Shown here: positions 11,018 through 53,300 of the stretch, one piece after another
Position numbering within the stretch: position 1 is the stretch's first letter
Layout: every line of letters starts with the position of its first letter
From: Rhabditophanes sp. KR3021
Lineage: Eukaryota; Nematoda; Chromadorea; Rhabditida; Alloionematidae
Assembly: GCA_963281155.1 (NCBI GenBank)
Contig: CAUJLY010000003.1
Span: 5,518,001 to 5,582,000 of the forward strand
DNA length: 64,000 bases
Direction of reading: 5' to 3'
Notes under the pieces: model-generated
The model's database searches: none
Told to the model about the DNA's origin: nothing
The model's input: the letters and a program-made list of their open reading frames with translations, nothing else
Translations under genes and position numbers: made by a program

Positions 11018-12616
11018 ATGAACGATACTAAAACACACACCGTTCTGAAAACTAATACCTTTAACAACAATGGCAACCATCACAATAAAGACAATAATGG
11101 GCAGACTAATGAAATGGCATCAGGAAGTAAGGGTGATTCTGCTGTATCCTTCGAGCTAAACGAAGCTATTAACTCACTACATCAGTTGTCCGTTCAGCCT
11201 TCCACATCCAAGCAAAGACAGGGTAATGAATTTAAGATTGTTTCGGATAGGGCTCGGTCTTTGAAGAGATTCACTCCTTACCGGACTCCAAAAGTGGATG
11301 ACAGTGATGATGAGGTAGAGGAAGAAGATAATTGTCTCAATTTGAATTGCCGCCACCACCGGTCTACCAGTTATCATTTAAGCAACGAGTCGACGTTTGA
11401 GGACGCAGACCTTAAAAATAGACGCCATACTTTATGTTCCGTAGAAGCCCTGAACACGGACGATCCCCATTTGGCCTCGACCAATGAAAAAATCTCCGAA
11501 AAGGGTCTTTCCGAAGGCTGCTCAAGTCCCCATCTTTCCAAAACCACAACTCCCTCCTACACCACCACATCTTGCTCATTCGAAATCTGTAAAAAGCCAA
11601 AGTATTCCCAAACCGCAGAAAATGATGGTAATCGTTTTTTTATTTTACTTAATTTTAGTTTTATTTTAATTTTAGGTAAGTAAAGAACAATCAACAACAT
11701 TTACACAAAATAGGGGTTGCTGAATATCAAAACATTTATTAAAAGAGACAGCAAATATTAAATTAGTGGAATATTATTCGGAAGTATCTTTGAAAGAAAA
11801 ATAGATTTTGTCGATGGCATTTCAGAGATTCTTTTGATAGTTTCGGGATGCTTCTTAATCATTAGATTGACCGGATCTATCGATGTTTGTCCATAAATTT
11901 TGAAGGTCCAAAGTGATAGCGTACTCAAAAGCTAGAGCTTCATTACCAGTCAACTCGTCACAATATAAGGCTACAATTTGTCTATTAAGGCATAGATAGG
12001 CTGTTCTCCCTTGGTAGTTTTACGAGTCTTAGCCTTCTTAATTCACCCATCACCTTTTCCAGCAACTTAAGATCAGACAACTGTCTATCTTCTTCATAAA
12101 TATCCCTAACCTCATTTCGTAACTTGGCACAAATTCTTTACATGATATGTGAGATAGTGGGCTTCAGTGAAAGTTGATTTGCAGCTATTGCATTTGTTGC
12201 CCAACCCCTTCACAATCTTTGGTTCAGTGTTTGGATTTGGGATAGGCTTTATTAGATCGACTGCATGATCTTTAAGTAAATATTCATCTAACTTCCTTAG
12301 TGTCTCGGATAGAGTAGGGCAACAAAGAGCATGATTTGGTCGGTTGAGCAGTTGGAAGGAAGTAGTTAATCGCATGCTCAATTGCAAAAGCAGCATCCTT
12401 TGTAAACTTTGCAGTGAATAGATCACCCCACTGAAACATCTTTTGTAATTAATAAAGTAAACACAGTTAGATTCAAATTTTATATTATTAATTATGATTT
12501 CTTAATATTAATCAACTATTTCTTTAGGTGAAATAAATGAATTGACTGAATACTTCGACCGTTTCGTCGGAGTCGAGCTTAAAATGTCAGCCTTGGCAGA
12601 GTCAATGTATGCTTGA
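11018..12616 (+). CDS. OSER1: OSER1-like protein (oxidative stress-responsive serine-rich family)
   Basis: Two exons (11018-11627 and 12528-12616) join in frame to 232 aa. The start is the first ATG after the acceptor-like TTTTCAG at 10990. The body is low-complexity and rich in Ser, Thr, Asn and acidic residues, without folded-domain signatures or membrane segments. Two short blocks resemble OSER1 as I recall that family. Near residues 45-60 is SFELNEAINSLHQLSV. The extreme C-terminus reads ELTEYFDRFVGVELKMSALAESMYA, resembling the vertebrate ending with an acidic-aromatic helix, KMS, then MAE-MY (quoted here in pieces: ELTEYFDRF, KMSALAESMYA). OSER1 is a FOXO-linked stress and longevity factor in animals, and that role is only inferred here. 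The 900-nt intron contains an antisense decayed copy of the zinc-finger family described elsewhere. Confidence 0.58.
11745..12440 (-). pseudogene. Intronic zinc-finger-family relic, copy A (OSER1-like intron)
   Basis: The minus strand encodes a C2H2-like finger (CNSCKSTFTEAHYLTYH), then QLSDLKLLEKVMGEL and YCDELTGNEALAFEYA, with stops and frame changes between blocks. Copy F at 25.2-25.8 kb has the same blocks in the same order ([48 protein letters not shown]). Both end in a related helix (KHPETIKRISE and [11 protein letters not shown]). The host gene is on the plus strand, so the copy is antisense. Confidence 0.75.
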
Positions 12617-12771
12617 GGGTATATTCTGGTTATGATTTGTATATTGTTTATCACCCTATTTTATTTCTTTAGCTCCTTTTAAAATAAACTCAAATTAATT
12701 GTATAGAATAAATAATACGTTGATTGTTTGTAATTTTTTGTGTTATAACATTTTTAAATCAAATAGTTCGT

Positions 12772-12846
12772 ATTGTTGGTTAGTGCAATGGGTTGACTAA
12801 TGATTTAGGAATCGACGACACGCGTTCGAGTGCGGGCTGGTTTACC
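12772..12846 (+). pseudogene. tRNA-like sequence with box A and box B matches, probably a tRNA-derived relic
   Basis: TAGTGCAATGGG fits the RNA polymerase III box A pattern, and about 45 nt later GCGTTCGAGTGC fits box B with the invariant TTCGA. A 3' ACCA-like end follows. I cannot fold a proper acceptor stem, and the anticodon stem is not a clean 5-bp stem with a 7-nt loop. It is therefore not called a functional tRNA. A tRNA pseudogene or the head of a short interspersed element are the options. Confidence 0.35.
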
Positions 12847-13141
12847 AAGCATACCTTTAAATTAGTTAAATTTATGTATGATAAGGCCCAATATCAATTA
12901 GTGAAATTTACGTAATTCAGTCTTTAATGACTGGATGCTCGTCAAATATTACTAGACAAACTTTTTCTAAAACTTTAAATTATTTATGAAACAGCAGTTT
13001 TAGATTGCTTTCAACTAACGATTATAAAAGACTTTAATTTTTAGAACAAATTTGTATTAGTAACTTTTTATTAATAGTATTGCACAAATAAGGGCAATTC
13101 GCAATTTATTTATTTCAAGTTCTTGTTCAGATACGTAGTAA

Positions 13142-14374
13142 TCAATGGAAAGAAGAGAGGCTGTTGAAGGCATTGCCTTCATTTTCGGAAATTTCAAAGC
13201 TGAAATCGGAGGTAACGTGGTCGGCGGCTTTCCATTCAAATCCGACAAAAGCATACGCTTCTTTGGTGATTGGTGCTTTAGCCTGAGGCTTAGTGGCTTT
13301 CGTTCTTTCCTTTAATTGATCTTCAAGAGCAGCAGCTTCTTTCATTAAAGTTTCATTTTGTATGCGAGCAGCGTGGATAAGTTCCATTTTGTTAGTCTTT
13401 TCTTCGAAACAATCTATTATGGAATTACAACTACAAGATTCATTATCACCTTCTTTATTTGCGTTTTTCGAATTAACTTTGCTGGAAGCCGATTTTCCTT
13501 TAGATAGAGGTAAAAGAATGGCGTTGTTATTTAAACTACTATTAACCCCAATCATATTGCAATTGCTAACTTCTCCTATATTACTAACTGGAAGTTTCTT
13601 ATTTTGCATCTTTTTACCCTCAACTTTAACATTATCAGGAACCTCCCCTCTGCTCTTTTTCTTTTTTATCTTAGGATCAGGCATTTCAGCAGTAGGCAAA
13701 TGATCAATCGGATCATATTTCTGGTCTCTTTGCTTCATTGTTTGTCTGACTTTCATGTTGTAGTTAGGAATAGTGACGATGGCTGCTTTTCCATTACGGC
13801 TTTTGGCATGTAAGCAACAAGATTTATGAAGAATAACTATGAGACAAATCATGAGGATACTAAGAATAACAATGCCTAATATCACTAATAATATTTTTGC
13901 TATGTTTGGAGGTTTACTATCACCTTGAGAGGAAGAGTTATTTGAGTAGGGTTCTTTGAATATCCTTTCTTGGTCGTCGTCTTTCTTTAGATCAAAGTGG
14001 TTATCGGATCCAATTTGGTGACTCGTTTGAGCACTTGAAATAAATTCACCATTGGCGGTCATCGAAATAGATTCATTATCGGTAGTGCTTGGACTATAAT
14101 TAGGTTCGATGCCGCGTGGAATAGAGTCATTACGGATGTTGTTTGAAATATTTCTTGACATTGCATCAAATTGTCTCGGATTATCCGCAACACTTTTCAG
14201 ACCAAAAGAGTGGCGTTTCCTTTGAATCTTGTCACTTAAAACATCAATCTCCGATTGATTATCCAAATGCAGCGACTTCACGACTACTCCTTCTCCAAAA
14301 AAAACGAAAGCAAATATAACCACCAATGTAATATTAAAAAACATAATTTTAACGTAATCTCTTAAAATCAGCAT
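13142..14374 (-). CDS. Single-pass type I membrane protein of unknown function
   Basis: An uninterrupted 410-aa frame starts with a hydrophobic signal-like stretch (MFFNITLVVIFAFVFF; a second in-frame ATG lies at its head). A Ser/Asn-rich extracellular part with several NxS/T sites follows. A strong membrane segment lies near residues 160-182 (ILLVILGIVILSILMICLIV), then a short cysteine stretch. The long cytoplasmic tail is rich in Lys and Ser, with a basic run KIKKKKSRG. No domain is recognised. It converges on the OSER1-like gene. The layout (signal, short ectodomain, one membrane pass, basic tail) resembles the protein at 61.1-62.0 kb, but I see no convincing sequence match between them. 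Confidence 0.7.
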   Translation of the reverse strand: MLILRDYVKIMFFNITLVVIFAFVFFGEGVVVKSLHLDNQSEIDVLSDKIQRKRHSFGLKSVADNPRQFDAMSRNISNNIRNDSIPRGIEPNYSPSTTDNESISMTANGEFISSAQTSHQIGSDNHFDLKKDDDQERIFKEPYSNNSSSQGDSKPPNIAKILLVILGIVILSILMICLIVILHKSCCLHAKSRNGKAAIVTIPNYNMKVRQTMKQRDQKYDPIDHLPTAEMPDPKIKKKKSRGEVPDNVKVEGKKMQNKKLPVSNIGEVSNCNMIGVNSSLNNNAILLPLSKGKSASSKVNSKNANKEGDNESCSCNSIIDCFEEKTNKMELIHAARIQNETLMKEAAALEDQLKERTKATKPQAKAPITKEAYAFVGFEWKAADHVTSDFSFEISENEGNAFNSLSSFH

Positions 14375-14525
14375 CTATTGTAAAGCTATAAAATTAGCAT
14401 TTTGTTTAAAATCATATTATGTGTATCATTCCAACTCCAAATTATTATCTAAATTCAAATTTGCAACAAATATATGCACATGATTTTCGTTTAACAAAGC
14501 ATTCTTTCATGTAACAACTCCTAAG

Positions 14526-17557: not shown

Positions 17558-20500
17558 ATGTTGCCATTTCTAAAGATGGCATCTACTAGTAGAAGCTGGT
17601 TATTTTTTATATTTTTCCTAACTATTAATCCTAATTTATATAATGCCTCCCAACCGCCACCAACTACATTTGCAAATGCTCCCGGACCACAACCACTCGT
17701 CATACCTATTCACAGCGGCCAAAGTAAGTTTCAATAGACGTGTATATCAAACAAAAACCGACGTCAATTCATATACCATCTAATATGTATAAAATAAAGA
17801 TCAATCATTTTTGTGTCTTGTTTGTCAAAACAATTATACACAATCTACCTGTTAAAAGTTTTGCAAGTATTAGATACACTTAAAAACAAAGTAGCTTTAA
17901 CCTTTATATTACTTATCACGATCACTAAAATATACTATTAGTTATTGTTTCGGTGTAATTAAATACAAACAGATACTTTCTTGTTTTTGTCATTGATTTG
18001 ATGCAAATTGGCTTACAAAATAACTAATAACCTTCTCATCGACAAATATATAGTCTTTTTAATCGAACCAAAAAATATTGGTTTGAAGGTTAATGTTGGT
18101 CATAAAGTAAAGTTATTATTTTCAGCAAATATAAGGAAGAATTCAAAAGGCCACCCATTTGGAGATTCTTTTACATCTTTGCAAAGACCAGCAAGGGAAG
18201 ATGAATTTCAATGTGTTTCTGATGGCAAATTCATCAAAATCGCATGGAGGTGTGATGGGTCTGCTGATTGTATTGATGGCTCAGATGAGGCTAGTTGTGC
18301 TCATCCTGGTATGTTCAAATCTTCCTAACAGTATCCTAATTAAAAATAGAGTATCATAAGTCGCTTACCCACAAAATATTAAAAAATAAAGTTTTAGAAG
18401 TAGTTTAGTTAAAAATATTAGTCATAAAATAGAGAACATGTATATTAACTTAAAATTTATTATGCACGAAAAACAGCACAAAAGATGGTATATAATATAT
18501 ACAAAGAGAAAAAATAGCTTATTCAAATATTTAAGTTTAAAAATGACTTCGACCAGAGGTCAACAATGTTGGAAGGATTCTGTCAATTTAAAAGATCGAT
18601 TTCTGGAGCGGAACACTTTCCATGATCGCAATTAGTAATTGTCCACATACATTTTTCATTAAATAGATATTCCAAATTCTTCGTAACTTTCTCGGATAGA
18701 GCTGGAAGCTTGCATTGGATGATATTGCCAAGACCAACTTTGTGCATTTTTTACTCTTTCCATTCAAAAGGCCTTGTTTCTTTGATTCTCAATTGCATGT
18801 TCGAAATTGAACAGCTTTCCTGTCATCTTTTTTGCTTCCTCCAATATAGAAGATAGACTTTTTGAACGTTTCCAAATCACTCCAAACGCAGCATTGTTTC
18901 TTGAATCTCCTTGCAGATACCATTGATCATGTAATCAAAGTTCACGAAATACTCTCCACATTCGACGCACACCTTGTTCTTAGGCTTCAATTTCACATGT
19001 ATCTTCCCACACGCTCTTTTTACTAATTGATTAAATAATTAATTATAATTATGAAATAAGAATAGCATCTTCACAATGATCATACCAGCATTCTTACAAG
19101 TTTACTAAGCATTAAAGTCTCTGCTCTTCTTAATTTGTCTGTTTTAAACAATACGCCAAAAATTTGTCTCCAGCTAAGACGTTCTTCATTATTAACATAG
19201 GCAGTAAAAGAGGTACAACTTCGGTGATGTTGAGAGTGCTTGAACGGCATTTAGCCTAGTCTTGATTGTCCATCTAGTTGCTGTTGTGTCATTCATACGA
19301 GGAAGTACTAGGGGCAAAAATAGTTGATTGTGCTTCTAATTTAATTTGAATATACTAAAATATTAATTAAATGTAATGTTCAAAAATCTTAAATTAAATG
19401 AGTAAAACAGCTAAATATAAACTTATCATACAACTTCTTTTAATTTTATATATCACATCCAGTTGTCAATTAACCAATACATAAATAATATTACGCTATG
19501 CTTTTAGGGTGCAAACAAGATCAGTTTCAATGTGACACTTATAATATTCATGGAGTCAATTGTATTCCAAGGTAAGTCAAAAACGGGATGGGAAATGTGG
19601 ATCAACATTACATTGTATTAAAAAATGAGTAATAAAATTAAATTGGCCTTAAACATGATGGCATGTAAAGTGCCTTTCAGCTATATTCATATTTTGAATG
19701 TGCAAAGTACTAAAGGCCCGTTGGCATACAGTCACGGTAGTTCGGACAATTATTAAAAATATAAAACAACTATTAAAAATATAAACAACTATTAAAAATA
19801 CTAAACAATTATTCCAAGTTATCAACTTTGCGATGGAATCCCGGATTGTAGTGATAAATCCGACGAAAACTCATCTTGTCCAAAACAAACGGTTTCATGC
19901 GATGTAAAAGATGGTTCCGTTTTTCAATGTGCTGATGGTCGTCAATGTTTTCCCAATTCTGAGCGTTGCAACAACGTTTACAATTGCAGAGATTTATCAG
20001 ATGAACTTTCTTGCTCATCTAACCACACGGCCTGTTTCCAATACCAATTCAGATGTGAGAATGGAGGAGCTAGTTCTTGCATTCCAAAATCATGGGTGTG
20101 TGATGCTAGTTTTGATTGTCCAGACCATTCAGATGAACCAGCATCTTGCGAATTCAAAGCTTGTCAGAGTGGTGAATTCACTTGTAAGAATAAGAAATGT
20201 GTTAGTTTGAAATACAAATGTGACAGCTTTGATGATTGTGGCGACGGAAGTGACGAAGAAATGTGCAATGCCTATAAATGTCCTCCTCAAATGTATCCTT
20301 GCTCAAGTTCAGGTTGTCCCCTTTCTTTAATGATCTTAACTAATTTTTTTATTTTAGGTAATTTATTGAACTAAATTAAGAAGCTTATTATAAAATAGGC
20401 AATTAAAAAACTATAGTAGAAACAAAGGTTAACATTTGCTATCGACAATTTCTTTTGCATTAAAGATTTTTTAGCTAAGATGACACCAATTGCACAGGCA

Positions 20501-23500
20501 TTCACTGAATTGAGAAGGTAGCTAGATACGTTTGTATCATTGATTCCAACCTCATAAAACATGTACAACATTTGACTTACGTACTGCCCACTCAGTAGCT
20601 TTTAGTTAGCAATAACATTTAAAATCTTCTAGACGAGATAGATAAAAATGTCACCAATACATTTAAACACATTAACGAATGAATTTATCCAATTTAGGCA
20701 AATGCATTAGTGAACAGAAATTATGTGACAAGTTTGCGGATTGCCCACAAGGAGACGATGAAAAGAACTGTAGTTCTAATCTATGCCCATCTCTTGGATG
20801 CCAATCGGGCTGCATCCAAAGGTAACATAAATTGATTTAACAAGTTAATATTGTTTTAGTCCATTGGGAGGACATTGTACTTGCCCAAACGGTTATAAAC
20901 TCGATGAAAGATATCAAAGAACTTGTTCAGATATTAATGAATGTGCAGAATTCGGGTATTGTGATCAAATGAGTTGTCAAAACCACGTGGGTTCATTCGC
21001 TTGCTCATGTCTATCATGTTTCAAACTAAAAATGAAATCAACTGACGTGAATGGCAACAACACCACAACTAGAGGCTACTGTACTTCCATGGAGTCCGAG
21101 AAAATGAGGTTATACGTTGCTAGAAGGGAAGGATTGTATCGGGTTAATCCTTACTCACCTAGCGAAGAGGCAAAGAAAATTACATCCGGAGAGTTTTTGT
21201 ATGGAATCGGCTTTGATTATGCTGATAAGAAAATGTTCTGGACAGATCGTCTTACTCATGCCGTCTTCTCAGCTAATATTAATGATAATGGAGAAGCCGA
21301 GCAAATTACCAAACTAGATTTGAAGAGTTTGATTTTCCCTAGAAATTTAGCCGTTGATTGGATTACTAATAACTTGTACATTATCGAATCTGGCTCAAGA
21401 AGAATCGACGTTTCAAATTACGAAGGAGATCGCAGAACAGTTTTACTAGCTGATGGTTTAATTTTGCCACTTGATCTTGCCTTGGATCCTATTAGAGGCG
21501 AAATGTTCTTTACCAACCAATTTAAGGTAGAAGGATGTGCCATGGATGGAACTAGAAGGAGAACCCTTATTGATACTCACACTCATCAAGTCAGTGGAAT
21601 TGTTGTGGATATTCCAGGTGCTTTATTAAACATGAAAAATTAAAAATATAGTTAAAAACCCGTAGAGATCTCTTCTTTTTCAGCAAAGATTCTTTCAGTG
21701 ATAAGTTTATCAATCTCTTGAGCACTAGCAGGAGAAAGCATGTAAACATCTTCAAATGAGGCTTTTACATTATCCACATTTGTGACTTGGTCGCCAAAGT
21801 ACTCCGTAAGAGTGTACTCTAAATTCTCTTCTAACTCTTTTGAAGAAACATTGACCATGACTACGATTGTCCCAGCATTGCTATCGTTGATCTCCTTCAT
21901 TCTGATTTGCTTTTTAGACTTAACGCTTATCATCAACTTTATTTTTGTAGTTGCAGAGATGTTGTGCCATTCTTGAGTGGAAATTTGGATATTTAGAGTT
22001 AATTGTTGATTCTCTAACATAATAAGCAGCCAGGATAAGATCTTCTAAAGTCCATTCAGACAAAGGTTTGTCACTCATTCTTGGATTCAGAAAGAAATAA
22101 AGATAAAAGAGATTTTGAGCATCTGGATTGGTGGAGATAGACCAGATTTTGTTCAATATTTCCTCAGCATCAAACGTTTAATTAAAAGCTTTGACTTTGT
22201 CAAATACCTGCCCACATTTCCTTTCTTCATAATGATCAACTAAAGCTCCATTATTACAAAAAACTACATGACACCACTTGCAGTGGATTTTTTCTGAATG
22301 CTCACCTTCTTTATGTTCTTCCAAGTCTCCTTTAGACAGAAATGAATACGAACATTCACTACATTTGTATACTTTGACAGGAGAAAAAGTTGGAACATCT
22401 GTTTCTTTGATGTCTGTGTCTCCCTTTTGACTTGTCCAACATTTTTATTTCATCTTCTGTGAGGCAATTCAACAGTTTTCTGTACCCATATCAAGATTCT
22501 TAAAACCAAGACAGTACACAATTAGGCAACGCTCAATTGTAAAAGCTAGGGAAGTTCATAAAAAAGTTTTCCATTTAATTGTGTAACTTGAAGCTTCTTT
22601 TTGCTTCAAAAATCTCCTTCATTTTCTGGATCTTGAAACAAATGAAGATCAATCTATATATTCTTTTTACGTATTTATTTTTACGGTGGTCAAATCTTGC
22701 TTCTTCGTTCTGTTCATACTCTTACACCTGGATAAAATAGAACATCAGCAGTGTAAACACTATGCACATTTCTTTTCCCAACTATCTTGGACAATTTCAC
22801 AAACTCTCTTTTAGGCATTGTAGCAAATAAAACCCAGGAGATTACATTTTGTTTAATCTAAAATATTACGATTAATAATAGAAAGAACATGTATTAGACT
22901 CACCAAAATAATAATGAGACAGTAAAACATCTTAAGGATATGCTATAGCAAGTTTTAAAGTGATATTCTTTTGACTAGAAAAATTGATATAAAGCATTGC
23001 CAAACTGTATATTGAAATCAAAAATTTATTAAAAAACGGAAAATCTAATCCAAAAATAGATATCTCTACTTTTAAAGAAAATATTGTTTTAATGATGAGT
23101 TTGCTAATAATTGCCATTCCATTCCAGCTAAACGTGTTTATTGGGTTGATCCAAAGGTTGACAGAGTTGAATCTGTTGATTATAATGGAAATGACAGACA
23201 AATTGTGGCACAGGGCATGAATTCTGTCCCTCATCCATTCGGTTTAACGATGTAAGTAAATGATTTTAATTTTAATTAGTTTCTTTAGATTCGATGAATA
23301 CCTTTATTGGACAGATTGGACTAGATTAGGCGTCGTCAAAGTGGAGAAGTTTGGATCCCAATCGGAGGTTATCTGGACAAATAAAGAAAATAACGTATTC
23401 CCAATGGGAATCGCAGCTTACCATCCAATGACTCAACCAGGACCGGAACACTCAGAATGCTTTGCCCAAAATATTGAAAATCCTTGCAAAAATAGCGATT

Positions 23501-26500
23501 GCGAAGGAATGTGTATTTTAGGAAAAAGTCAATCAGGCTCAGGTAAACAAACCTTTTTATAAAAAGTATCAATTTAAAAATAGATGAGCAAATAATTTAA
23601 AAAGATTAGATAATAAGTTTGAGGTCAAATAGAATTTTAACCAAAATGTTAACTATTTTGCGTGCATTGGCAGAGTTGAGTAAATAGGTGTTAGGGATAG
23701 TGCCGTTCCCAAGATCACACTTTGTTCCTGCCACTTAAACTTGTGAGAAAATATGTACTCCAGATTCTTCACGACTTTCTCTGATGGTACTGGGAGCTTG
23801 CACATAACAATATTGTCGACACCTACTTGGCTCATTCTTAACTCTTTGTGATCTAGGCTTAAAGACAAAAACATGCTAGTGATGGGATCAAGAAGAGAAT
23901 CCATTTGAGATGGACTTTGTGAACAGTATGCTAAGAGGTGTCTTCCTAACCGGCTAAAAATATGATGTCTTTACTTAAAACCTACTATATTTGATCCATT
24001 ACAGGTGTCGGTTACAAATGTGCTTGTCCAATCGGTCAAAAATTAGTTGCCGGAACTAAATGTGTGCCTGCCTTGGATTACCTACTTTTCAGTAGCAATA
24101 AAGTTGTCAGAGGAATTTATCCACATATTCAATCTAATGCATTGGCTGAAGCTATCCTTCCCATTTCACCAATCTCCCAACGTAGAATCGGCATGTATTT
24201 CGCTGTTGAGTGTGATGTTCATGGTTCAAGCTTCTTTTATGCCGATATCATGGATAATACAGTCTTTAGAATTAAACCTGATGGTGAAGGATCAGCTCCT
24301 ATTTTGGTTACTCACAACGATGGCCTGATTTCAATGAGTTTCGACTGGGCTTCTAAGCAGCTTTATTATATTGATAATATCAGAAATTCACTCGAAGTTA
24401 TTAAGGTCTCTGAACAGGGCTTGATGAATGCCGAGGAACTTCAACACAGAAAGTTATTGTCTAATCTCCATGATCCAGTCAGTGTCGTTGTTCATCCATG
24501 GAAAGGACTTTTATTCTTCGCTGAAGCCGAAAGACCTGCTAAGATCTGGAAATGTAATATTGACGGAAGTGAATGTTTGGTCATTCGAAATACTTCTCTA
24601 GGCCGTCCTTCTTCAATGGTCATTGACTTCATTGATGAAAAACTATGTTTCAGTGATTCTTTATTGAAGATTATCGGATGTATGAATTACGATGGATCTA
24701 ACTTCAGCGTAATTAATGCCGAAGGAGCGATCCCAGTTTCTATTGCTATTATGGGCGATAATTTGTACTTTATTCACCAACGTCCTTTCAGTATTAGATT
24801 TGTCAACAAACGATTCGGAGGGAAGCCACAAATTGTTAGAGACTTCTCCAAAGATGAAAGAACCATATTTACTCTGAAAGCATGTAGTTACCAAAATCAA
24901 CCTATTCCAGATCCCTCTATTGACCATCCTTGTCATTCACATGACTGTGGGCATTTCTGTTTTGCTATTCCAACTAATGTTTCAAATTCTGAACCTCTAG
25001 AAAAGAGATGTGGTTGTAAAGATGGATTTGCTCTAGCTGACAATGGAAAAGCATGTAACAAGCAAACAACTGTTGAAGCTGAAGAACCAATTAATGCAAC
25101 TCATTTCAAATGCGGAAATGGGAGAGTTATTCCTAGTTCATTCAGGCAAGTTTATTAAAATATTAAATAGAAATACCCTTTTAAAGAAGAGTAGATGTTG
25201 TCTAGAGCAATCTCTGAGATTCTCTTAACAATTTCTGGATGTTTCTTCCACATAATATCATTGGATTGTCTTGATCCATCAATGTTTGTCAAGACATTTT
25301 GCATATTCAAATGCAAGAGCTCCATTCACAGTCAATTCATCACAATAGAAGGCTACAAGTTGTCTCTTATTGTCCAAAATCTCCATAATTCTTGTCTCTT
25401 TTGCATTGAATGGGATGAATCTCCTAGAATAGAATTTTGCTAATGAGAAGTGATTGAGCAGTCTAATTCTAACGTTGCCGGCTACCCATTATAAAAAATG
25501 TTATCTTCCAAAACATCGAAAGATAGTGAGCTAGCCTCAACACCAGCAGGCACATCAACTAAGACATACAAACATTGCGTTCCTTTGGCTGTTTTGCGAG
25601 ACTTAGCTTTCTTTAATTCTCCCATTAACCTTTCCAGCAAATCCGCATCAGACAGTTGCACTTCTTTTTCATAAGTCTTTTTAACCTCACTTCTTAACTA
25701 AGGACAAATTCTCCTTCTACATGGATGACAAAACCTGTGTGATCATTGAAAGTAGTTTTGCAGCTATTACACTCGTGTTTCAATCCTTTAACTTTAATAT
25801 ATTAACCAACAAATTTCTTAAATCATTAATTCTTCATATAATTCAATTCAATTCAGATTCGATGGAGAGAATGACTGCTTTGATTGGTCAGATGGTAAGA
25901 ATATAAAACTAGGTTAAAGTTTATCTTTTGTTTAGAAACTAATGAGGAAGGAAAACGTGTGATTAAGGAATTCAAATGCCCTCCCCAAACTATCAAGTGC
26001 AACAACTCAAACACTTGTTTATCTTTGAACTTCGCCTGTGATGGGGATTCGGACTGTGGGGATTATTCGGACGAAGACAAGGTATGCGTTAATTACAAAA
26101 ATTTGATTCATAGTAATTATCACATTTTTAGAAATACTGCAAGGACGGAAAACACCCGCCCTGTCCATCCAACAAATTCCAATGTGATAATGGATTTTGT
26201 ATCAATCAAGTATTTAAATGTGACAGTGATAATGATTGTAAAGATGGGTCTGATGAAAAGATTGAGATTTGTGGTAAGTTTCGAATTAGTAAATATTTAC
26301 TTATTAATTATTAGGCAACAAAACTTGCACTGAACATGAATTCCAATGCTCCAACCTTAGATGTATACAAATAGGCTACCTTTGTGATGGAGATTCTGAT
26401 TGCTATGACGGTAGTGACGAAGACAAAGAAAGTAAGTTTGACTCACAAAATATTGATAATTATATATTTAGGATGTCCACAAATCCAGTGCCGCCCTGAT

Positions 26501-29500: not shown

Positions 29501-32500
29501 GATGATTCCTTCTTGCTCATCGCAACCAAAACTAAGATCGTCGGATTACCTCTGGATTCAGCTAATGGAAAGGGAGTGGCAGTTCAGCCTATTGGTGGGA
29601 ATGGAATTACCTCAATTGACATGGAACATGCCAGTAAATCAATCTTTATTGCCGAGTCATCCGGCCCTAATAAGGGAATTTCAAGAGTTGTGATCGGAGA
29701 AGCTGAAGCCAAGCAAATAGTCAAAGACAACTTCGGAAACTTCCAAATCAAATCCATTGCCGTTGATTGGGTTAATTATAATTTATACTTCATTACGGGA
29801 GATTCCGATCGTACTCATATTGAAGTTTGTCAGTTAGATGGAAAGCATCGTAAGATCTTGCTTACCACTAAAACAGAAACTCCGACATCCATCGCTGTTG
29901 ATCCCATTGCTAGATACATTTACTGGGCTGACAAAGGTCAAAAACCAACCATTCAAAGAGCTTTCCTAGATGGAAGTAATAAACAGATAATTGTTCATGA
30001 AGGTTTGAAAGAACCAACGGGTAAGTGTTGGGTGATTATTAAAAAATATAAACAAAAATATACTTAAAGCAGTTTGTTGTTTGTTTAATATGGGTATAAA
30101 ATAGTTACATTTGATTATCATGGAATTTTTAGCCAACACGAATCAATTTACATATCTTAAATTTTATAAATTTCCTTTGATCTTAAACATGGTAACATCT
30201 AAAATATTTTTCAGACATAATAGTCGACTCCAACAGTCACTATGTTTACTGGACAGACGCTGGATTAGATGGAATCTATAGAGTTCGCGGAGAAGGTGGC
30301 AAACCTGAATTGGTTAGAAGCGACATTGCCGAGGCTACAGGTTAGTAACACAAGTAAAGTTAAATACGTAGAGAGGAAGTGGAATTATTCGGTTATTCAG
30401 TAATATTAAAAGCATAGCCCACTTAATTTATACTCCATTTTTTGCTTTAGGAATCACCATAATCGGACAAAATATGTACTGGACGGATTCAAGATTAGAA
30501 AAAGTGTTCATGTCTGGCAACAGGCCAAATCAAACTAACTTTATTATGTCACCTACGACTGTAGCTGCTGGTTATAGTGAACTAGGAGATGTTGTAGCCT
30601 TTGACCAATTGGCTCAACCAAAATCTACATCGCCATGTCATATTACCGATAATTTAAGAAAGGCACCTTGTCAGCAACTGTGTTTTGCTTTACCAGGATC
30701 CAGTATTACGTAAGCCCAATCATTTCGAGTGATATTAATCCATTCATTTATTTCAGCTGTGCATGTTCCAAGGGAGTTTTGAAAGGAAAAAGTTGCGAAG
30801 AACCAGAATCCTATTTACTATTCTCAGATGGAGATCAAATTGTAGATTATAATTTGGTGCCAGACATCAAAGCCAGTTCTCCTCTTCGTGAACCACTTCC
30901 TTTAATTCCAAATCTTCAAACATTCGACGTTGACATCAATCTGAGGAGAATCTTTTACGTTGAAGAATCGTCAGTTGGAACGAATATCTCGTGGTTCCCT
31001 ATGAATATACCCACTTCGCCTAGACAAATCTTGTCACCGAGTAAGAAAAAGGCGTCAGTTGAATTGGCCACTAGGCATATCTCAGACATGAAGCTAGACT
31101 GGTTAACACAGAAGCTTTACTGGACTACTGGAAGAACTGGTAAAATCTTTGCCATTGATGTTCAAGGAAATCATCTAGCTTCTATTGCTTCTGGAGACTG
31201 GACCTATGCTCTAACTTTGGACCCTTGTGCAGGTAATTAAAAGAGAAAAAACATTTATTTAAGGGGCAAAATATTAAATGAGACAGAATATTATTAGATA
31301 ATGTTCATAAGAAGCCCATACAATCTCCAACTTTTGATGAGTTTTAGGGAGAACAGCTGTACAAATTGGCATAATTAGTCAATTTTGGACTACTGGATGC
31401 TCAGTCCCAAATTCTTCTTAAAAAAATACTTAATTCAAATTTGTTTTCTAATATCATTAAAATGGTTTCGTTATATTAATGGATACTTTTCAGGATTACT
31501 TTTTTGGTCCGATTCGGGCTACAAGTTAAGCGTGGGGGCTTATACACCAAGAATCGAAAGAAGTAACATGGCTGGTGGTGAGTAAAAATTTATCAAAAAG
31601 ATAAACATAAAATATAATTAAAAGGAATTATTTCTTTAACAGCAAAGAACTTGTCAAGAATAAGTTTGCCGATTAGTTGAGTACTAGCTGGTGAGAGCAT
31701 CTAAGCTTCTTCATATGAGCGTTTGTCATAGTCGACATTCTTAACTTGCACACCAAAATACTCAGTCAAAATGCATTCCAAGTTCTAAGCCAATTCCTTG
31801 TCCCTAACATTCGTTTTGATTACAATTGTCTTAAAATGAGATCCGTCTCTTTGGCGGCGTTAATGTTTTTCATTCGTTGTTCCTTTCTTGAAAGAATATC
31901 TTTATCACCAACATGATTTTGTACTCATAAAAATGATCGGGTATTTTTTTATTGTTGCACCAACATAATAAGCTGCTTTAATAAAATCATCAAAAGCCAC
32001 TCACTCAACGGCTTTGGATTGATTCTGGGATTCAGGAAAAGGTACACAAAGGCAGTAGTTGAAGCGTCTGGGTCGTTCATGTCCGTCCAAACCTTTAGCA
32101 AGATTTCGATAGCTTTACAATTTTGATTAAACATTTTCATTTCCTCAAGCAACTGTTCACAGCCCCTTTCTTGATAATGATCTGATAAATGTTTAGAACT
32201 ACAAAGAATGAGCTTACACCATTTATCTTAAAACACAAAATACAATTTTAACATTATTAATATTTTTATGAAACAGGAGACCGCGTAGTTTTGGTTACTG
32301 AAGGAATTTCACTGCCAGCTGCTCTTACAGTCGATATCAAGGATCAAAGACTTTATTGGGCGGATGTTAGTAGATTAGTGATTGAATCTATTGGATACGA
32401 TGGAACAGATAGAAGAGTCATTGCTACTGGGTACAGAGCTAAATCTTTAGATATTTGGGATCATTGGCTTTACATGTCCGATCCTCTGTCAAATGGATTG

Positions 32501-38500: not shown

Positions 38501-40192
38501 GACGGTGAGTTAATTATGCAATTATTTTTAATCTAAAAAACGCAAATTATCAAGACATACAAAATAGATTAATACTTCAGATCATATTCTTCGCATTCAT
38601 GCAACAACAAGTCTTTTAAAACTTAATCAGCGACTTCAGTTAGTTTAAGTTATATTGTTACTAAATGTATAGTTTCGGATTTTTCTCTAAAATATGACAC
38701 ATAAATAGCTTGTGTTAAGATTTTAAGTAAAAGTTTTAATGAAAAGTTGGCAGGCAGTTTAATTTGACTTTAAATTTCATAGTATTAGTAAATAGATTGA
38801 AGTAAACAATCGACTTTTAAAAGTACAAGCCTTAAAATATTGTTGGTACCTAATCTAGTATGAACGGCGTAAACATTTAAAAACATTAAATTCATTAATT
38901 AAAAAACAACAAATTTATCTGTCATTTTATTATTTATTGATATAGGGAGACATAGAAAATCTATTGCTAAAGAACTTGTTTATGCACCTTCAAGTATTAC
39001 TGTTGATGAAGGCAAAGACAATAGACTATACTGGGCTGATCCTAAGTATCACAAAATTGACTCTTGCCTACCAGATGGAAAGGACCGCAAAACAATAGTT
39101 AAAGACAGAAAAACTCCATTCACAGTAGATGTCTTTGAAAATCATCTATACTGGGGGTCAAAAGAAACTAAAACTTTATATGTTCAAGACAAATTTGGAC
39201 GTGGACGAGTTTATATTTTGGCATCTAATCTACCTGATATGCATGCTGTTCGTGTTCAGCATAAATTTGCCAGAGATACCAGTCGTGTGGAAGGAGGTTG
39301 TAAGGATGCTGGATGTAGTCATTTGTGTATTACTTTGCCTAACAAAGGATTCCATTGCCTTTGTCCGGATAACACAGATATGTCTGATGAAAAATCGTGC
39401 AGAGCTGCTAAGGTCGAAGAAATGTCTATGCCAAAACAATGTAAATGTGAAAATGGCGGCATTTGTCTTCTGAATGGGTATGGTTTATTCATTTATACAT
39501 TTAACTTTATTATTTAATTTAGTATGTGCGAATGTCCAAATGGCGCTGAAGGCGAATTCTGTCAAAAGAGTTCATCTGTTACTAGGCAACTAATTAGTAA
39601 ATTCAGCAACGGACCAGTAATTGGAATTATTTTGATGCTTCTACTCCTATTAATAATGGGTGGAGTTGCATTCTTAGCCGTCAACGCTTACCAAAAGAAG
39701 TGGCTTTTATTCAAGAAGAAGGAAGGCATAGATGCTTCTGTCTCATACAGCGGAAACGTCATTTCATTCAGTAACCCCGTCCTTGATAACAAACCGCCCG
39801 GAGAGCCACTTGAATATCACACGCCCACATTGAATGTTGTTTCTAATAGCGGAACATCCTCATCAACTACATTTGCTAATCCAGTATATGAACTTGAAAC
39901 AACAAATGATATCAACTTGCCATCGACTTCTTTTACAACAACACCAATAATTCCACCACCACCATCCAAGACTAAATTTGAAACCCACTTTGACGATGAC
40001 AACAAATTCGACAACACATTCATTGGGCCAATGACAGTTGAAAATCCTTTAAATTCACTTGCCTTGGAATCCATCGACATCTCTCCTAGAGGAAGTGACC
40101 CACTAAGCACTCCGCAAGTCCCCCCTAGACCAGCAAGTGGTCCTGAAAAAAACAGAACTCACGTAGTTCCCGACCAAATTTCAGATGTTTAA
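17558..40192 (+). CDS. LRP2: Megalin-type giant LDL-receptor-related protein (LRP2; C. elegans lrp-1-like)
   Basis: A giant endocytic receptor, reconstructed from 36 exons whose 14,412 nt stay in frame (4803 aa). The exons are 17558-17723, 18126-18308, 19508-19571, 19819-20312, 20698-20821, 20860-21617, 23128-23251, 23289-23542, 24005-25145, 25857-25894, 25936-26081, 26132-26273, 26315-26431, 26472-27180, 27226-27740, 27925-28322, 28365-28932, 28986-30020, 30215-30340, 30451-30709, 30757-31232, 31494-31577, 32277-32651, 32716-33456, 33538-33825, 33925-33958, 34057-34175, 34329-35157, 35206-36105, 36153-36281, 36327-36455, 36576-36731, 36865-37190, 37232-38504, 38946-39477 and 39533-40192. After a signal peptide, LDLa clusters of 6, 8, 10 and 11 repeats (about residues 56-344, 1080-1430, 2817-3263, 3669-4127) alternate with EGF modules and YWTD propellers. 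The 8-10-11 order with a large first cluster is that of LRP2, not LRP1. A membrane segment near 4612-4637 precedes a tail of about 165 aa with NPVL, NPVY and proline-rich motifs for adaptor binding. Introns 9 and 15 are GC-AG. Six introns hold antisense relics. In C. elegans this receptor serves sterol uptake and moulting. Confidence 0.94.
18540..19290 (-). pseudogene. Intronic zinc-finger-family relic, copy B (LRP2 intron 2)
   Basis: On the minus strand a CxxC block ([16 protein letters not shown]) is followed, through frame changes, by [18 protein letters not shown] at about 18.65-18.72 kb. Copy E at 23.7 kb has [18 protein letters not shown] and copy J in DECR1 has VKLPVSSKEIAEDLEFI. Stops interrupt the sequence. 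It is antisense to LRP2 and fills much of a 1.2-kb intron. Confidence 0.7.
19747..19816 (+). repeat. AT-rich tandem repeat next to a splice acceptor
   Basis: Three to four tandem units of about 18-20 nt read like CAACTATTAAAAATATAAA and end directly at the acceptor of LRP2 exon 4 (exon begins 19819). The acceptor TTCCAAG is weak compared with its neighbours, so the repeat may have spread into the polypyrimidine tract. Confidence 0.75.
20395..20600 (-). pseudogene. Intronic zinc-finger-family relic, copy C (LRP2 intron 4), C-terminal piece
   Basis: The minus strand reads [17 protein letters not shown] followed by [10 protein letters not shown]. Copy J on the plus strand in the DECR1 intron reads [16 protein letters not shown] then AKKLSIPNFN, and copy E reads [17 protein letters not shown]. 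Only this C-terminal piece is recognisable. It lies antisense in a 385-nt LRP2 intron. Confidence 0.72.
21652..22560 (-). pseudogene. Intronic zinc-finger-family relic, copy D (LRP2 intron 6), the least decayed
   Basis: The minus strand gives two zinc-finger-like units: [20 protein letters not shown] with a second His (C-x2-C-x12-H-x4-H), and [20 protein letters not shown] with a final Cys. An all-alpha-looking block follows ([40 protein letters not shown]). After a frameshift near 22.0 kb comes a 120-aa tail with [17 protein letters not shown] and [16 protein letters not shown] see one internal stop (after KAFN) and one frameshift, so it is close to intact. Copy G matches the second finger, the middle block and the tail. 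The host is LRP2 and the copy is antisense. Confidence 0.8.
23640..23945 (-). pseudogene. Intronic zinc-finger-family relic, copy E (LRP2 intron 8)
   Basis: An 83-codon minus-strand frame contains [19 protein letters not shown] shift to the next frame continues as [20 protein letters not shown], matching copy C. The two conserved blocks thus occur in the same order as in copy J. It occupies most of a 462-nt LRP2 intron, antisense. Confidence 0.75.
25185..25800 (-). pseudogene. Intronic zinc-finger-family relic, copy F (LRP2 intron 9)
   Basis: The minus strand encodes [50 protein letters not shown] and [16 protein letters not shown], interrupted by several stops and frame changes. Copy A in the OSER1-like gene is its close relative. 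It fills the 711-nt GC-AG intron 9 of LRP2, antisense. Confidence 0.78.
27741..27924 (+). repeat. LRP2 intron 15, similar to intron 34
   Basis: This 184-nt GC-AG intron shares two blocks with LRP2 intron 34. Near its start both have GACA(C/T)AC(G/A)AAA followed by ATTAATACTT(T/C)AGATC. Near its end both have ATGAA(A/C)GGCGT and a common ATTTATC(C/T)GTCATTTTATTA. Both introns interrupt a propeller module right after an MDG motif. Confidence 0.7.
31618..32240 (-). pseudogene. Intronic zinc-finger-family relic, copy G (LRP2 intron 22)
   Basis: The minus strand retains the second finger's DHYQERGC end, then [16 protein letters not shown] matching copy D's [17 protein letters not shown]. After frame changes it has [17 protein letters not shown] and [14 protein letters not shown]. 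Several stops show decay beyond copy D. It lies antisense within a 699-nt LRP2 intron. Confidence 0.8.
38505..38945 (+). repeat. LRP2 intron 34, similar to intron 15
   Basis: This 441-nt intron carries the two blocks shared with intron 15 (27741-27924) at its two ends. The roughly 250 nt between them have no counterpart in intron 15. That middle includes ATATGACACATAAATAGCTT, close to a phrase in SRC intron 3 near 52.10 kb (AAATGACACGTAAATAGCTT). Confidence 0.65.
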
Positions 40193-40574: not shown

Positions 40575-42239
40575 CTATTTCTTATTTTTGTCGATTTTGG
40601 TTCTGACTGCATCCCACTGTTCATTAGGAATTTTGTGGCAAACTGCTCCAAAAGCACTAGGATGGTTGAAGTATTGTTGACCCCCATCGAAGTCGATCAC
40701 GCTCCCGTTCATCCAACTATATACAAAATATTAGAAAAATAATTTAAATGCAAAATGGACATACCTGGCATAATCAGAAGTGACGTAAGAGGCAAGATTG
40801 GCGACTTCCTGCAAGTCACCAACACGACCAACAGGAATATGCTTGCTAACTAATTTAATAGTTTCTTCCATCGTCATATTTGACAAGTTTCCAAAAGCCC
40901 CTTTAGTAGGAATTGGACCCGGCGCGATGACATTGAATCTCATATGGTGTTTAGCCCATTCGGTTGCCAAAGATCTAGCCAAACTTTCAACTCCATTCTT
41001 AGCGGCTCCACTAAAAGCAACCAATTCAATAATCGATGTGTTTAAATATATATTAAATAGATTTTTTATCAATCTATTCGTTTGAATTTTAATGTTAACT
41101 AAACGCTATTTAGTTTCAAGTAACATATGTGTAATCTCTACTGGGTCCCATCCTTACAAAGACTATTTGTAACCTATTATTTAAACGATATAACAATGAG
41201 GTAGTAATAAACGTGGGCACCTAAAGTATGATCACAATAATAAAAGACGTTATCCTACGTATAACAACAATTCAACGGTCTATTCGACAGAACGGAGAAT
41301 AGAATGGATCAAGTTTAGAAAGCTGGATTAAAGATGTTCGTTGTCAAGCTGCCCGTTAGTTCTAAAGAAATTGCTGAAGACCTTGAGTTTATTTGTATGG
41401 AAAATACAAATGCAAATCACCAACTGTGATCATGGTAAGTGTTCCATGAAAGAAACCTACCTCTCAATTCAGTGAATGCCTGTGCAATAGGAGCCATCTT
41501 AGCTAGAATGGCCTTTAACGCAAAAAAATTGTCGATACCAAATTTTAATTCTTTGTCTTTTCATATTTTTCCATCGTTCATTTTACCATAAACTTTTTTA
41601 ATTTTGTTTGATGACTTACCTAAAATAAAAAAAATTAGTTAAGATTTAAAAGGAAATCGATACCTAGGGACAACGAATTCAGCACTATTTCTGCAGTAAG
41701 GAGTAGAAATGTACAAGAATGAACATCCAATATTTCCATCAGCAATGACTCTCTTCCCGATAGCTGTAGTTACATTAGCGGATCCCAAGAGAACAATTTC
41801 AACGACTGTCTTAAAGGCATTTTGACTGAGACGTTCAGTTGGAGAAATGAAGTTGCCGGCGGCATTGTTCAAACAAACATTCGGGATTTTTCCAAATCGT
41901 TCTTGGATCTTGTCGATGCAAGATTCTATTGATTCTTGATCTCTAACATCCATTTGAATTGGCAACACTTTTCTGCCACTTTCTTTTTCAATTTCCTCAG
42001 ATGTGGCCTTGAGAACATCTAGTCTACGTGCTGCAATTACCACATCTCCCCCTAGCATAGAGTAGGTTCTGGCAATAGCTTTTCCAATACCTGAGCATTA
42101 ATGATTTGTAAGCAAATTTAAAATAATTCATACCTGTTCCGCCACCCGTAACCAAACACACTTTTCCGGCATAGGAGTCCTTTGGCAAAGCCAAGGTCTT
42201 CAAAACAGGAAAATACTTAGCTCCATGTTTGCATGCCAT
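40575..42239 (-). CDS. DECR1: 2,4-dienoyl-CoA reductase
   Basis: An NADPH-dependent short-chain dehydrogenase that reduces 2,4-dienoyl-CoA during beta-oxidation of polyunsaturated fatty acids. Four exons (42134-42239, 41664-42090, 40765-41010, 40575-40716) join in frame to 306 aa, the usual family length. Visible signatures are FPVLKTLALPKDSYAGKV, the nucleotide-binding GGGTGIGKA, AARRLDVLKATSEEI, DVRDQESIE, LNNAAGNFISPTERLS and APGPIPTKGAFG. The catalytic Tyr in STPYCRN lies 15 residues before the Lys in SGAAKNG, the spacing of DECR1. No clear mitochondrial presequence is seen. The last residues (KIDKNKK) do not form a canonical peroxisomal signal, so location is open. It converges on LRP2, and intron 3 (41011-41663) carries relic copy J. 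Confidence 0.92.
41300..41600 (+). pseudogene. Intronic zinc-finger-family relic, copy J (DECR1 intron 3)
   Basis: On the plus strand VKLPVSSKEIAEDLEFI is followed after a frame change by [16 protein letters not shown] and AKKLSIPNFN. These match copies B and E for the first block, and C and E for the second. The host is on the minus strand, so this copy is again antisense even though it faces the opposite way from all other copies. Confidence 0.75.
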
Positions 42240-44066: not shown

Positions 44067-44069
44067 ACA

Positions 44070-50353: not shown

Positions 50354-53300
50354 ATGGGTAATTGTTTATCGTCTTGCAATTCCTCTAATTCGAAATCAAA
50401 CCGAGAGATCGTGGAGCTTCCAAATTGGCATCCGACCGACTCTACTAACCAACAACGCCAAAATGGAAGGGACAATATGATGCCGACTAACATAGGTACT
50501 CCTAAAATATTCCACCTTGTACATCAAAGTTCTTTAGATCCTAAACCGATCAAGGATAATAATATTATTATGCATGGTGAAAGCTCAACTAACGGAGTTA
50601 GGCAAAATAATTATAATGGAACTCCTACACCTTCTATAAATAATGTAGCGAGACAGAATAATTACAATGGGACTCCTACGGCTTCTAAACGTAATTATTA
50701 GATTAATCCGTTACTTGAATATACTCTTTTAGTTTCAGAACATCGCGGAAAAGAAAAGTTGCTGGCTTTGTATAATTACGATTCTCGTGCGGATGGAGAT
50801 TTGTCGTTTGTGAAGGGAGATATTATGTATTTGCTTGATAATGGGTAAATTACATTTGTCATTATTTTATAATCAGTTTTATTTAGCAACAACGACTGGT
50901 GGTTTGTGGAACATGTAAAAGGAGGAAATACCGGTACAGCTTTATTAAAATTAAAAATTATTATTAAAACTGTAAATATCAAAAATCGGGAGTATCAACA
51001 AACTCGTTGATAATAAGTTCTGCTACTTGTCTATTAAGTTTCGAGTTTATTTCGAGGACCTCTTCAAAGGAAGGCAGAATCCGAGTTCTTTATTTGGGGT
51101 CTGGAGGCTTTTATTAAAATAGCTTTGATGTTGTTAATGACTTCCTCCTATTGGTACTGCATCTTCGAGACTGTGATTTCTTTTTCCCCATAAGACTGAT
51201 CCCGAGTGACACCATTAATGAAGTCTACCTTTCTATGGAACAGCATCTTTAGATCAACCTTCACTTTAAAAACATCACTATGCTTAGGCATTCTTTTTCC
51301 AAATTGTGCAGTCTTGCTGACGTATCTTATCACATCCTTTACATTATCTACTGTTTAACTTGCACTGAATTTTCTTGGGTCCAACATCAAGTAAACATGG
51401 AAGTCTCCCTTTTCAGTATCCTTGCCGTTGATGACTTCTAAAACTTCGTTTGCAGATGTCTTTTGAATCCCTGACATTCATTAAGAAACTTCCGGTAGTC
51501 TCTATTTCTTAAATGGGCTTTCAGAGTCGTATGATATCATCAGTCTCACCGCAATAACCAAATTTCTTGAGAATCTTGTCAAAAAAGCATACATAACATG
51601 CTTTCCAACTAAAACACATCCCATCCTCAGTTAACATCCGCTCCAACTATTTGACTAAGGCGGGCGTCCTTTTTTCATCACAGACTTGCTTTTCTATCCC
51701 TAACAGCAGCTAAAACAACTTTGGATTCTGAACAAATAAATTAAAATTAGAATACAATATATAATATACATATTAGACATGGTAGTACTTCACAGAAACT
51801 TTTGGATAGTAGGGCTAGTTCAGCAAATGGTCTGCTTTCCATGACCCGACTTACTTCCTCACAAATTACACGTCTGGATGTTTCTTTGATGGTTTCATTT
51901 CCAGCCATGACGGGAGCATCAAAAGGTTCACTTGCAAAACGAGCCTTGATTAAGTTTGCAAATAGCTCATTATTGAAGTCAGGATATTGATAGCAGGAAT
52001 AAATAGTAGCATCTAGTAAGTCAAGAGACATTTTATTTGAGGCAATGTTTAGCAACTAAAAATAGTAAGAATGATTAATGCACGTAAAATATGGGCTTAA
52101 AAAATGACACGTAAATAGCTTTTAGCAAAATTCAAATTTCGAAGAACAAAGCATTAATAAAGTGTTGGTCTACGGTCTTTTTAAATCAGATTTAAAATAT
52201 CGTGGCATGTAAATAATAATGTTGCAGCTAACATTTAAATCTTAAAATTAAAATATATTTATTTTCACAACACACTTCTGATTTATCTGAAATATAGGGT
52301 ATGTGCCAAGAAACTTCGTTGCTCAACAGGCGACTCTTGAAAGTGAAGAGTGGTTTGCTGGTCGAATCCCACGCAACAGAGCCGAGCGAATCGTCCTCAA
52401 CTACAAATTACCAAAAGGAACCTTCCTGATCAGAGAAAGAGAAGCAGACGTAAAAGAGTATGCCTTAACCATCAGAGACACAGATGAAGGCCGAAATGGG
52501 TCTGTGAAACATTACAAGATTAAAAAACTAGACGCAGACAGAGGATACTTCATCACGACCAGAAGACAATTCGGCACCCTCAAAGAATTAGTAGCCTACT
52601 ATACAGAGGTAGCCGATGGCCTGTGTTGTACATTAGGATTTCCTGCCCCTCGTATCACTCCTACTCGTCCAGATCTCAGTCATGACACTCAGCAGAATTG
52701 GGAAATTCCAAGAAACCAACTGCAATTAAAGAAGAAATTGGGAGATGGTAGGTTGATGATAGAAACACCATATAATTTACTAATGCATTTCAGGTTGCTT
52801 TGGAGAAGTTTGGTACGGAAAGTGGCGTGGTATTGTCGAGGTTGCTATTAAAACTATGAAAGCCGGAACAATGTCACCAGAAGCTTTCTTGCAAGGTAAA
52901 TTCAATTAACTTTAGCTGTTGACGCATACATTTATTTTTCAGAGGCTCAAATCATGAAACAATGCGATCATCCAAATCTTGTTAAATTATACGCTGTCTG
53001 TACAAAAGAAGAACCTTTTTATATTATTACTGAATTTATGGTCAATGGAAGTTTGTTGAGTTATTTGAGAGAAGCATCAAATGTGATTAGTCTACAGGCA
53101 ACTGTCGATATGTGCTCACAAATTGCCAATGGAATGATGTATTTGGAAGAGAGGAAATTGGTGCATAGAGATTTGGCTAGTAGGTAAGTATTGTTTAAAA
53201 TGATGCTAAATGAGTTTTTAAAAACAACTTATTGACAATATATTTTAGGAATGTGTTGGTTGGAGATAAAATTTCTGGAGTTCCTGTAGTTAAAGTAGCA

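Follow-up and report, generated by a model that had tools for sequence, protein, structure and literature searches.

A probable introner family in the nematode Rhabditophanes sp. KR3021 that encodes a C2H2-finger GIY-YIG endonuclease antisense to its host genes

We have analysed a 64,000-nucleotide (nt) stretch of the nematode Rhabditophanes sp. KR3021 (assembly GCA_963281155.1, contig CAUJLY010000003.1, forward-strand positions 5,518,001 to 5,582,000; hereafter the window), in which a family of related coding blocks recurs inside introns. The evidence makes it highly probable that this family is an introner whose spliced strand lies opposite the one encoding a C2H2-finger GIY-YIG endonuclease. 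At least for the copies with clear target-site duplications, the elements appear to have created the introns that hold them. The window is one part of a genome assembled as 44.8 Mb in six contigs; the available part of one report on this organism gives a 47-Mb genome and meiotic parthenogenesis (PMC9071541).

The original prediction claimed at least nine copies in the window, and all nine listed were refound by tblastn with family pieces. Copies D, G, B, E, J, C and H matched other members with E values from ~1e-19 (D) to 5e-6 (H). Copies A and F matched each other as protein and as DNA (70% over 209 nt, E 2e-22), and were linked to the remaining copies by domain order only. Exons were located with a splice-aware coding model trained on 17.9 kb of window exons, with reading added for A and H; the model recovered the long LRP2-like gene with its many introns of ~40-60 nt. 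Coding model and reading placed the copies, as predicted, in introns of four hosts, with nine of nine antisense to the host:

11628..12525 (3' end approximate), minus strand: copy A, in an intron of the OSER1-like plus-strand gene (coding model, tblastn, reading).
18309..19507, minus strand: copy B, in an LRP2-like intron; C-terminal half of the nuclease recognisable (coding model, tblastn).
20313..20697, minus strand: copy C, in an LRP2-like intron; 80% identity to J over 200 nt.
21618..23127, minus strand: copy D, the longest, filling its LRP2-like intron; ~90-nt terminal direct repeats.
23543..24004, minus strand: copy E, in an LRP2-like intron (coding model, tblastn, reading).
25136..25935, minus strand: copy F, in an LRP2-like intron; a relative of A.
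31233..32276, minus strand: copy G, in an LRP2-like intron; 71% identity to D over 155 nt.
41011..41663, plus strand: copy J, in an intron of the DECR1-like minus-strand gene; C-type mini-intron, GTAAGT at 41619 (minus-strand reading).
50845..52310, minus strand: copy H, in an SRC-like intron; decayed more than any other; its modelled acceptor probably lies ~20 nt 3' of the true one.

The last coding exon of the OSER1-like host, at ~12525 (C-terminal GEINELTEYF...), was read by eye. Of the seven introns longer than 300 nt in the LRP2-like gene, all but 38505-38945 carry copies.

Three family queries were run genome-wide, and the best 150 of 380, 595 and 705 scored candidates, respectively, were considered. 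Combined, these searches yielded at least 349 distinct loci matching the nuclease family (a distinct locus being a match more than 1500 bp from the next), not all of them individually checked. About 56 of the listed loci were inspected, namely the nine window copies and 47 regions outside the window (L numbers). The latter were mostly best matches, with six picked by spacing down the match list and three for long open frames.

By reading, 44 of the 47 outside regions were antisense to their host gene, none was sense and three were not placed (L007, L064 and L071). Host exons were found on both sides in 35 of the 44 (L023 and L024 being the weakest) and on one side only in nine (L005, L025, L029, L038, L047, L056, L063, L066 and L068). 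Five of the six regions chosen by spacing were placed, all antisense (two by one side), the sixth was not placed, and those chosen for long open frames gave two antisense and one not placed. When orientation was called automatically, with no reading, 37 of 38 element introns (window included) came out antisense and one sense. The lone sense call, L033, had weak predicted exons and by reading lies antisense in a MAM-like gene, a host that was not confirmed by Pfam. Opposite-strand host exons matched Pfam at E <= 0.001 in 26 regions, 21 of them above the Pfam cut-off and five below it (L029, L038, L047, L066 and L068); the hosts matched include HSP70, Cpn10, subtilase, Dpy19, ITPR/MIR, NTP transferase and PTP genes. 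Seven of the 35 host exons tried had no Pfam match and one more (L059) matched a neighbouring gene, hosts without a Pfam match being assigned from the coding model and reading.

Chance was rejected as the cause of this orientation. Among the copies inspected, none proved to be intergenic and three might be; the scarcity of such copies may mean that old ones were lost or that insertion prefers transcribed exons. The claim of a dispersed mobile family lying antisense in introns was upheld. We have also noted that in two HSP70 paralogues (L003 and L065) the copies lie 3 nt apart at conserved VGG codons, which may point to a sequence preference of insertion.

In the better-kept copies, the ends of the elements coincide with those of the introns. 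In the youngest pair, L036 in an hsp10 gene (Cpn10) and L038 in an EGF/teneurin-like gene, two aligned stretches of 407 nt and 228 nt were 96% and 93% identical, respectively. Between them they cover 1385-2166 of the L036 intron (1381-2174), bar ~150 nt missing in L038; in L036 the likeness begins at the donor GT and stops 8 bases short of the acceptor. In one subfamily, element starts like GTAACTAAAAAATTTATTGATAAAATAG directly follow a host codon in eight unrelated hosts, and recurrent element ends read ...ATTAACAACA followed by 7-12 nt and AG. Similar introns are, hence, found in many unrelated genes with the likeness ending at splice sites, as is characteristic of introners, and the GTAA-like start common to copies in eight hosts indicates that the element brings a splice site of its own. 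The host protein frame runs on across the element (Cpn10 ..KSK / GGIYIPEK..; HSP70 ..VLVGG / SSRIPY..). Based on this continuity, the introns would be spliced as read, with spliceosomal borders taken from the sequence.

Introns of the family tend to end in the same bases as the exon before them. We have compared exon tail and own intron tail in 38 hand-read introns, a set without copies lacking two readable ends (e.g. L005, L013, L015, L025, L029, L040, L066-L069 and H) and also without L060, for which no anchor was found. The comparison gave 206 identities out of 380, against 158.9 ± 7.2 after re-pairing (0 of 20,000 as high). The excess was unchanged without L017 and L024, and was the same in earlier sets of 29 and 31 introns. 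The automated set (38 introns, no reading) scored 85.8 versus 63.9 ± 4.8, with 0 of 10,000 as high. In 51 control introns, selected at 31-121 nt and with a median of 47 nt, the score was 86.2 versus 83.9 ± 5.0 (3211 of 10,000 as high), i.e., there was no excess. Comparisons of 8 and 10 nt in 36 introns that formed a first control set likewise showed none (702 and 1063 of 5000 shuffles). Target-site duplications, a signature named in the original prediction, were found in the set as a whole. As judged with the control introns, the elements would share with introners the insertion into exons with duplication of the target.

Clear duplications were seen in L051 (GATATTTACAAG / GATATTTACAG), L002 (ATGGAACAAG / ATGGAACTAG), L057 (TTATGAAAAG / TTATGTAAAG) and copy D (ATTCCAG twice). 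Those of the window are the following:

21611..21617, plus strand: target-site duplication of D, left (exonic) copy ATTCCAG.
23121..23127, plus strand: target-site duplication of D, right (intronic) copy ATTCCAG, source of the AG acceptor.
41664..41680, minus strand: probable target-site duplication of J, left (exonic) copy GAATTCGTTGTCCCTAG.
41011..41027, minus strand: probable duplication of J, right (intronic) copy GAATTGGTTGCTTTTAG, 12/17 identical, ending in the acceptor.

In J, the exonic duplicate reads CCCTAG and the intronic one TTTTAG, a better acceptor. Since one duplicate is coding sequence, the insertion would have hit an exon, and since the other ends in AG, it would supply the acceptor. 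A mirror case, also clear, was found in L017 (host presumably a rabphilin-like gene), whose intron starts with GTATGTCCAAGTGA and whose following exon starts with GTTTGTCCAAGTGA, and L024 is of the same kind; here the duplicate opens the intron and would therefore supply the GT. The first bases of the intron and the start of the downstream exon gave no excess over the 38 introns (14,003 of 20,000), though L017 and L024 show the duplication.

Some copies open with an additional intron-like stretch. The mobile unit of C, J and L041 opens with such a stretch, ~45 nt long, that ends TTTTAG and runs directly into GTAA; in C this mini-intron measures 45 nt, contains the branch-point-like CTTAACTAA and a T run before its TTTTAG, and gives way to GTAA at 20358. 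A second version, with GTATGC after it, is common to L003 and L014. The third, in A, is a 48-nt stretch that ends TTTTAG, with GTAAGT next at 11676. The probable duplication of J and L041 flanks mini-intron and element together, so the mini-intron seems to travel with the element. It might be a carried recursive splice site.

The encoded protein is predicted to combine C2H2 fingers with a GIY-YIG nuclease of the LEM-3-like type. Copy D, read in the reverse sense, contains two C2H2 fingers and a GIY-YIG domain, and in open copies outside the window one or two GIY-YIG domains come after the C2H2 fingers. L039 scored above the PF01541 cut-off and L025 above that of PF22945 (33.7 vs 27 bits), the latter profile being matched by 4 of 9 aligned members (E <= 0.05). 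In the Protein Data Bank, the family profile matched GIY-YIG chains (E 9e-4). The aligned block keeps YxFLDP, YxGES, R, H, E and N in most members, which we take to be the positions expected of the GIY-YIG fold. The blocks named in the original prediction are pieces of this nuclease, LTEYFGxQVxNVD and CKLPxxSEKVxKNLEY spanning the glutamate and asparagine region. A match to HAP2-GCS1 (E 0.09, below its cut-off) was rejected.

Open nuclease frames were found in intronic copies (509 amino acids in L039, 289 in L072 and 225 in L070). The ratio of nonsynonymous to synonymous differences (pN/pS) was 0.43 (561 pairs) and 0.41 (269 pairs) in two large sets, where pairs are related and not independent events, and 0.60 (39 pairs) and 0.40 (4 pairs) in two small ones. 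Third-position changes were in excess in these sets, which indicates that the frame evolved under past selection between copies. Being kept by selection, the nuclease is likely needed in cis or for the family. The term "relics" used in the original prediction is apt only in part, for the coding frame is constrained between copies (pN/pS ~0.4) and open in the three copies above. A protein search with the L039 nuclease returned no match at E <= 0.001; a search of proteins with the family profile returned seven, all from Rhabditophanes sp. KR3021 (E <= 0.001). At G000:C2:5162672-5163600 the protein is 90-93% identical to parts of KR3021 protein P0001.

We propose that a staggered break made by the nuclease would be filled with a copy of the element, the inserted DNA being copied DNA. 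A copy would insert into a coding exon, mostly just past ...AG, and ~7-17 bp of target would be duplicated. The first bases of the element (GTAA or similar) would then serve as the 5' splice site, and the branch-point-like ATTAAC/CTTAAC near the far end, together with the AG of the right duplicate, as the 3' splice site. In L017 and L024 these roles would be reversed, the left duplicate giving the GT and the element the AG. In either case splicing would restore the host mRNA exactly, while insertion in the opposite orientation would break the host gene. The anatomy suggests that copies are antisense because the donor GT and the branch-point-like sequence lie opposite the nuclease frame, so that splicing removes an insertion only if it is antisense. 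Sense and intergenic copies would be kept few by selection together with a targeting of transcribed exons.

Several observations weigh against this reading. In the stretches examined, neither a reverse transcriptase nor a transposase was recognised, and terminal inverted repeats were not found either. Among 32 automated introns, detectable homology came to within 25 nt of the donor in 16 cases and equally close to the acceptor in 12; the other six of the 38 either had no computed extent (H, L065, L067 and L069) or were mis-called (C and L033). Individual duplications were in the minority (11 of 38 introns scoring >=6, vs 1.7 expected), and in the hand-read set none was found in A, B, F, G, L048, L049, L006 and others. 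The splice sites of that set were chosen by the authors, with a possible lean, and L017 and L024 were added for noticed duplications, the automated set being free of both. In the first control set, which contains one mis-called row (a 1-nt intron), two of four measures were slightly raised, namely the 6-nt comparison (55 of 5000) and the gapped score (163 of 5000). A whole acceptor is common to L046, L049, L054 and L063 (AATCGTTACAG-like) and to L042 and L047 (CACATTTATTCAAG), which a pure target-duplication model does not predict.

On the side of the protein, the youngest pairs had a pN/pS of ~0.8-1.1, though this is expected after insertion. AlphaFold on nine sequences gave a weak model (mean predicted local distance difference test score 55.8) without a significant match in a fold search of the Protein Data Bank; T4 EndoII and Hpy188I, which we take to be GIY-YIG enzymes, appeared only at E above 1. 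Finally, L071 (C1:7292900-7295300) has a 502-amino-acid open frame with a C2H2-like finger and a GIY-YIG-like C-terminus, and no host gene was recognised within 2.4 kb of it; it could be an intact free-standing relative or an ordinary gene.

The alternative that survives best, which we still consider improbable, is that a mobile nuclease element enters existing introns near their ends and that antisense copies survive as sense ones introduce poly-A and splice signals. Taken by themselves, the bias in orientation and the location in introns would fit this, as would the AATAAA-like signals near the element end, in the element sense, and the intron-like stretch of ~46 nt before the element's GTA(A/T)G or GTAA in A, C, J, L003, L014 and L041. 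However, insertion into an older intron puts both duplicates in the intron, whereas one duplicate here is coding exon up to the splice site. Moreover, element homology begins at the GT itself in eight hosts, the 47-nt median control intron leaves little room, and in J and L041 the duplication encloses mini-intron plus element, so that the mini-intron seems to have been moved along. The original suggestion of introns as havens, with a bias arising solely from selection against sense copies, was not sustained, given the duplicates in coding exons and the better-kept element ends that are splice sites.

Slightly less probable again is the possibility that a spliced-out intron reverse-splices into another mRNA and returns by reverse transcription, the antisense nuclease being passenger or helper. 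This would explain the fixed orientation, the restriction to genes and the shared acceptors (L046/L049/L054/L063; L042/L047). Nevertheless, it predicts no target-site duplication, which the set as a whole has, and reverse transcriptases are few: RVT_1 had 37 matches genome-wide, none of them in 48 stretches (the window and the 47 regions) and one within 3 kb of L025. The acceptor-sharing groups sit in different hosts, as if introns had moved whole, acceptor included. Nine RVT_1 matches, present on all six contigs, have an identical score (135.9 bits) and long open frames, which suggests a young retroelement family.

An ordinary amplified family of nested antisense genes would fit the long open frames and constrained coding evolution of some copies, as well as the pattern in Pristionchus, where intronic antisense genes are the commonest antisense class according to the available part of PMC4994411; we give it next to no credence, for it predicts neither ends at splice sites, nor exon duplicates, nor hundreds of dispersed, often broken copies. 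Simple retroelement copying was rejected, as no poly-A tract was seen at the end and reverse transcriptases are few. So was a cut-and-paste DNA transposon with terminal inverted repeats: among 12 introns tested, the best was D, with 9 of 300 shuffles as high. Terminal direct repeats were tested in five copies; those of D, L003 and L006 (~90 nt) exceeded all 200 shuffles, whereas those of L002 and L017 did not.

We have compared the proposed nuclease-encoding introner with known systems. Penelope-like elements have a GIY-YIG nuclease and pseudo-LTRs (long terminal repeats). The nuclease is alike, and the direct repeats of D, L003 and L006 (three of five tested) recall the pseudo-LTRs; unlike in those elements, there is no reverse transcriptase in the 48 stretches examined. 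By profile, the domain is of the same type as in the LEM-3/ANKLE1-type GIY-YIG nucleases (PF22945). The latter are host genes with ankyrin and LEM domains, whereas here we find C2H2 fingers and a multicopy mobile unit.

Introners are known, and their use of the target duplicate as the source of a splice site has been described (Gozashti et al. 2022; PMC9860276, here and below as far as the available part of that paper goes). They likewise form similar introns in unrelated genes, with likeness stopping at exon borders and with target duplications. In Chrysochromulina, introners bring their own 5' splice site and take the 3' one from the target duplicate, as here, and the reverse is also described, as in L017 and L024. 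The introners of that paper are, however, non-autonomous transposons with family median lengths of 30-654 nt, while the present elements, in a nematode, measure ~0.4-2 kb and carry the gene of a GIY-YIG nuclease in antisense to that of the host. Only two groups, both of them animals, had introners among the animals and land plants of that paper (PMC9860276). The accessible text of a nematode intron-gain survey (PMC9169325) mentions introner elements as a source known from elsewhere.

The nearest known relatives, from the partial texts at hand, are the GIY-YIG-bearing spliceosomal introns of mirusviruses. These homing introns, or "shintrons", are GT-AG introns with an inner GIY-YIG or HNH nuclease gene, as here; they occur in viral genomes, prefer certain target genes and presumably home into intron-free copies (PMC12768974, available part). 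The present elements differ in residing in a nuclear animal genome, in many copies in unrelated genes, and in having target duplications. A spliceosomal intron holding a homing-type nuclease, the defining trait of shintrons, is represented here by the GIY-YIG domain, with borders deduced from sequence. In the part of their 2025 paper available, the shintron authors state that an association of nuclease and spliceosomal intron had not been observed before and that equivalents are apparently absent from eukaryote genomes (PMC12768974). In a search judged by titles and the openings of abstracts, which did not extend to subscription papers or to most preprints, we found no report of a nuclease-encoding introner in a cellular genome. 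What would be new is the nuclease-encoding introner, in an animal, introners themselves being known.

The origin of new introns is a long-standing question, and known introners rarely reveal what moves them. If the interpretation holds, a nematode introner with a GIY-YIG nuclease would offer a concrete enzyme, ends and a target in a bacteria-feeding worm group, and would connect the introners of animals to the shintrons reported from viruses in 2025. A wider proposal has, in our estimate, roughly even chances: that autonomous animal introners with an antisense insertion nuclease made hundreds of introns in conserved genes, that in some lineages a ready-made recursive splice site (the ~46-nt stretch ending TTTTAG, with a new GTA donor directly behind it) aids removal of the kilobase newcomer where introns usually measure ~47 nt, and that insertion is tied to the location of conserved genes.

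The distribution along the contigs is uneven among the matches listed. The largest contig, C6 (11.2 Mb, a quarter of the genome), holds 14 loci versus 87 expected by length (P 2e-26), a six-fold depletion, and on C1-C3 the listed matches crowd the contig middles. Crowding in chromosome middles would fit, without demonstrating it, a preference of insertion for transcribed exons. One guess is that C6 is a sex chromosome with few germline-expressed genes; for Rhabditophanes sp. KR3021, the available part of PMC9187692 reports no sex chromosomes.

Two introns of the LRP2-like gene, 27745-27949 and 38505-38945, are 78% identical to each other over 78 nt towards their 3' ends (27837-27914 and 38859-38935) and bear a weak likeness to the element end; possibly, they are internally deleted, non-coding relatives of the element.

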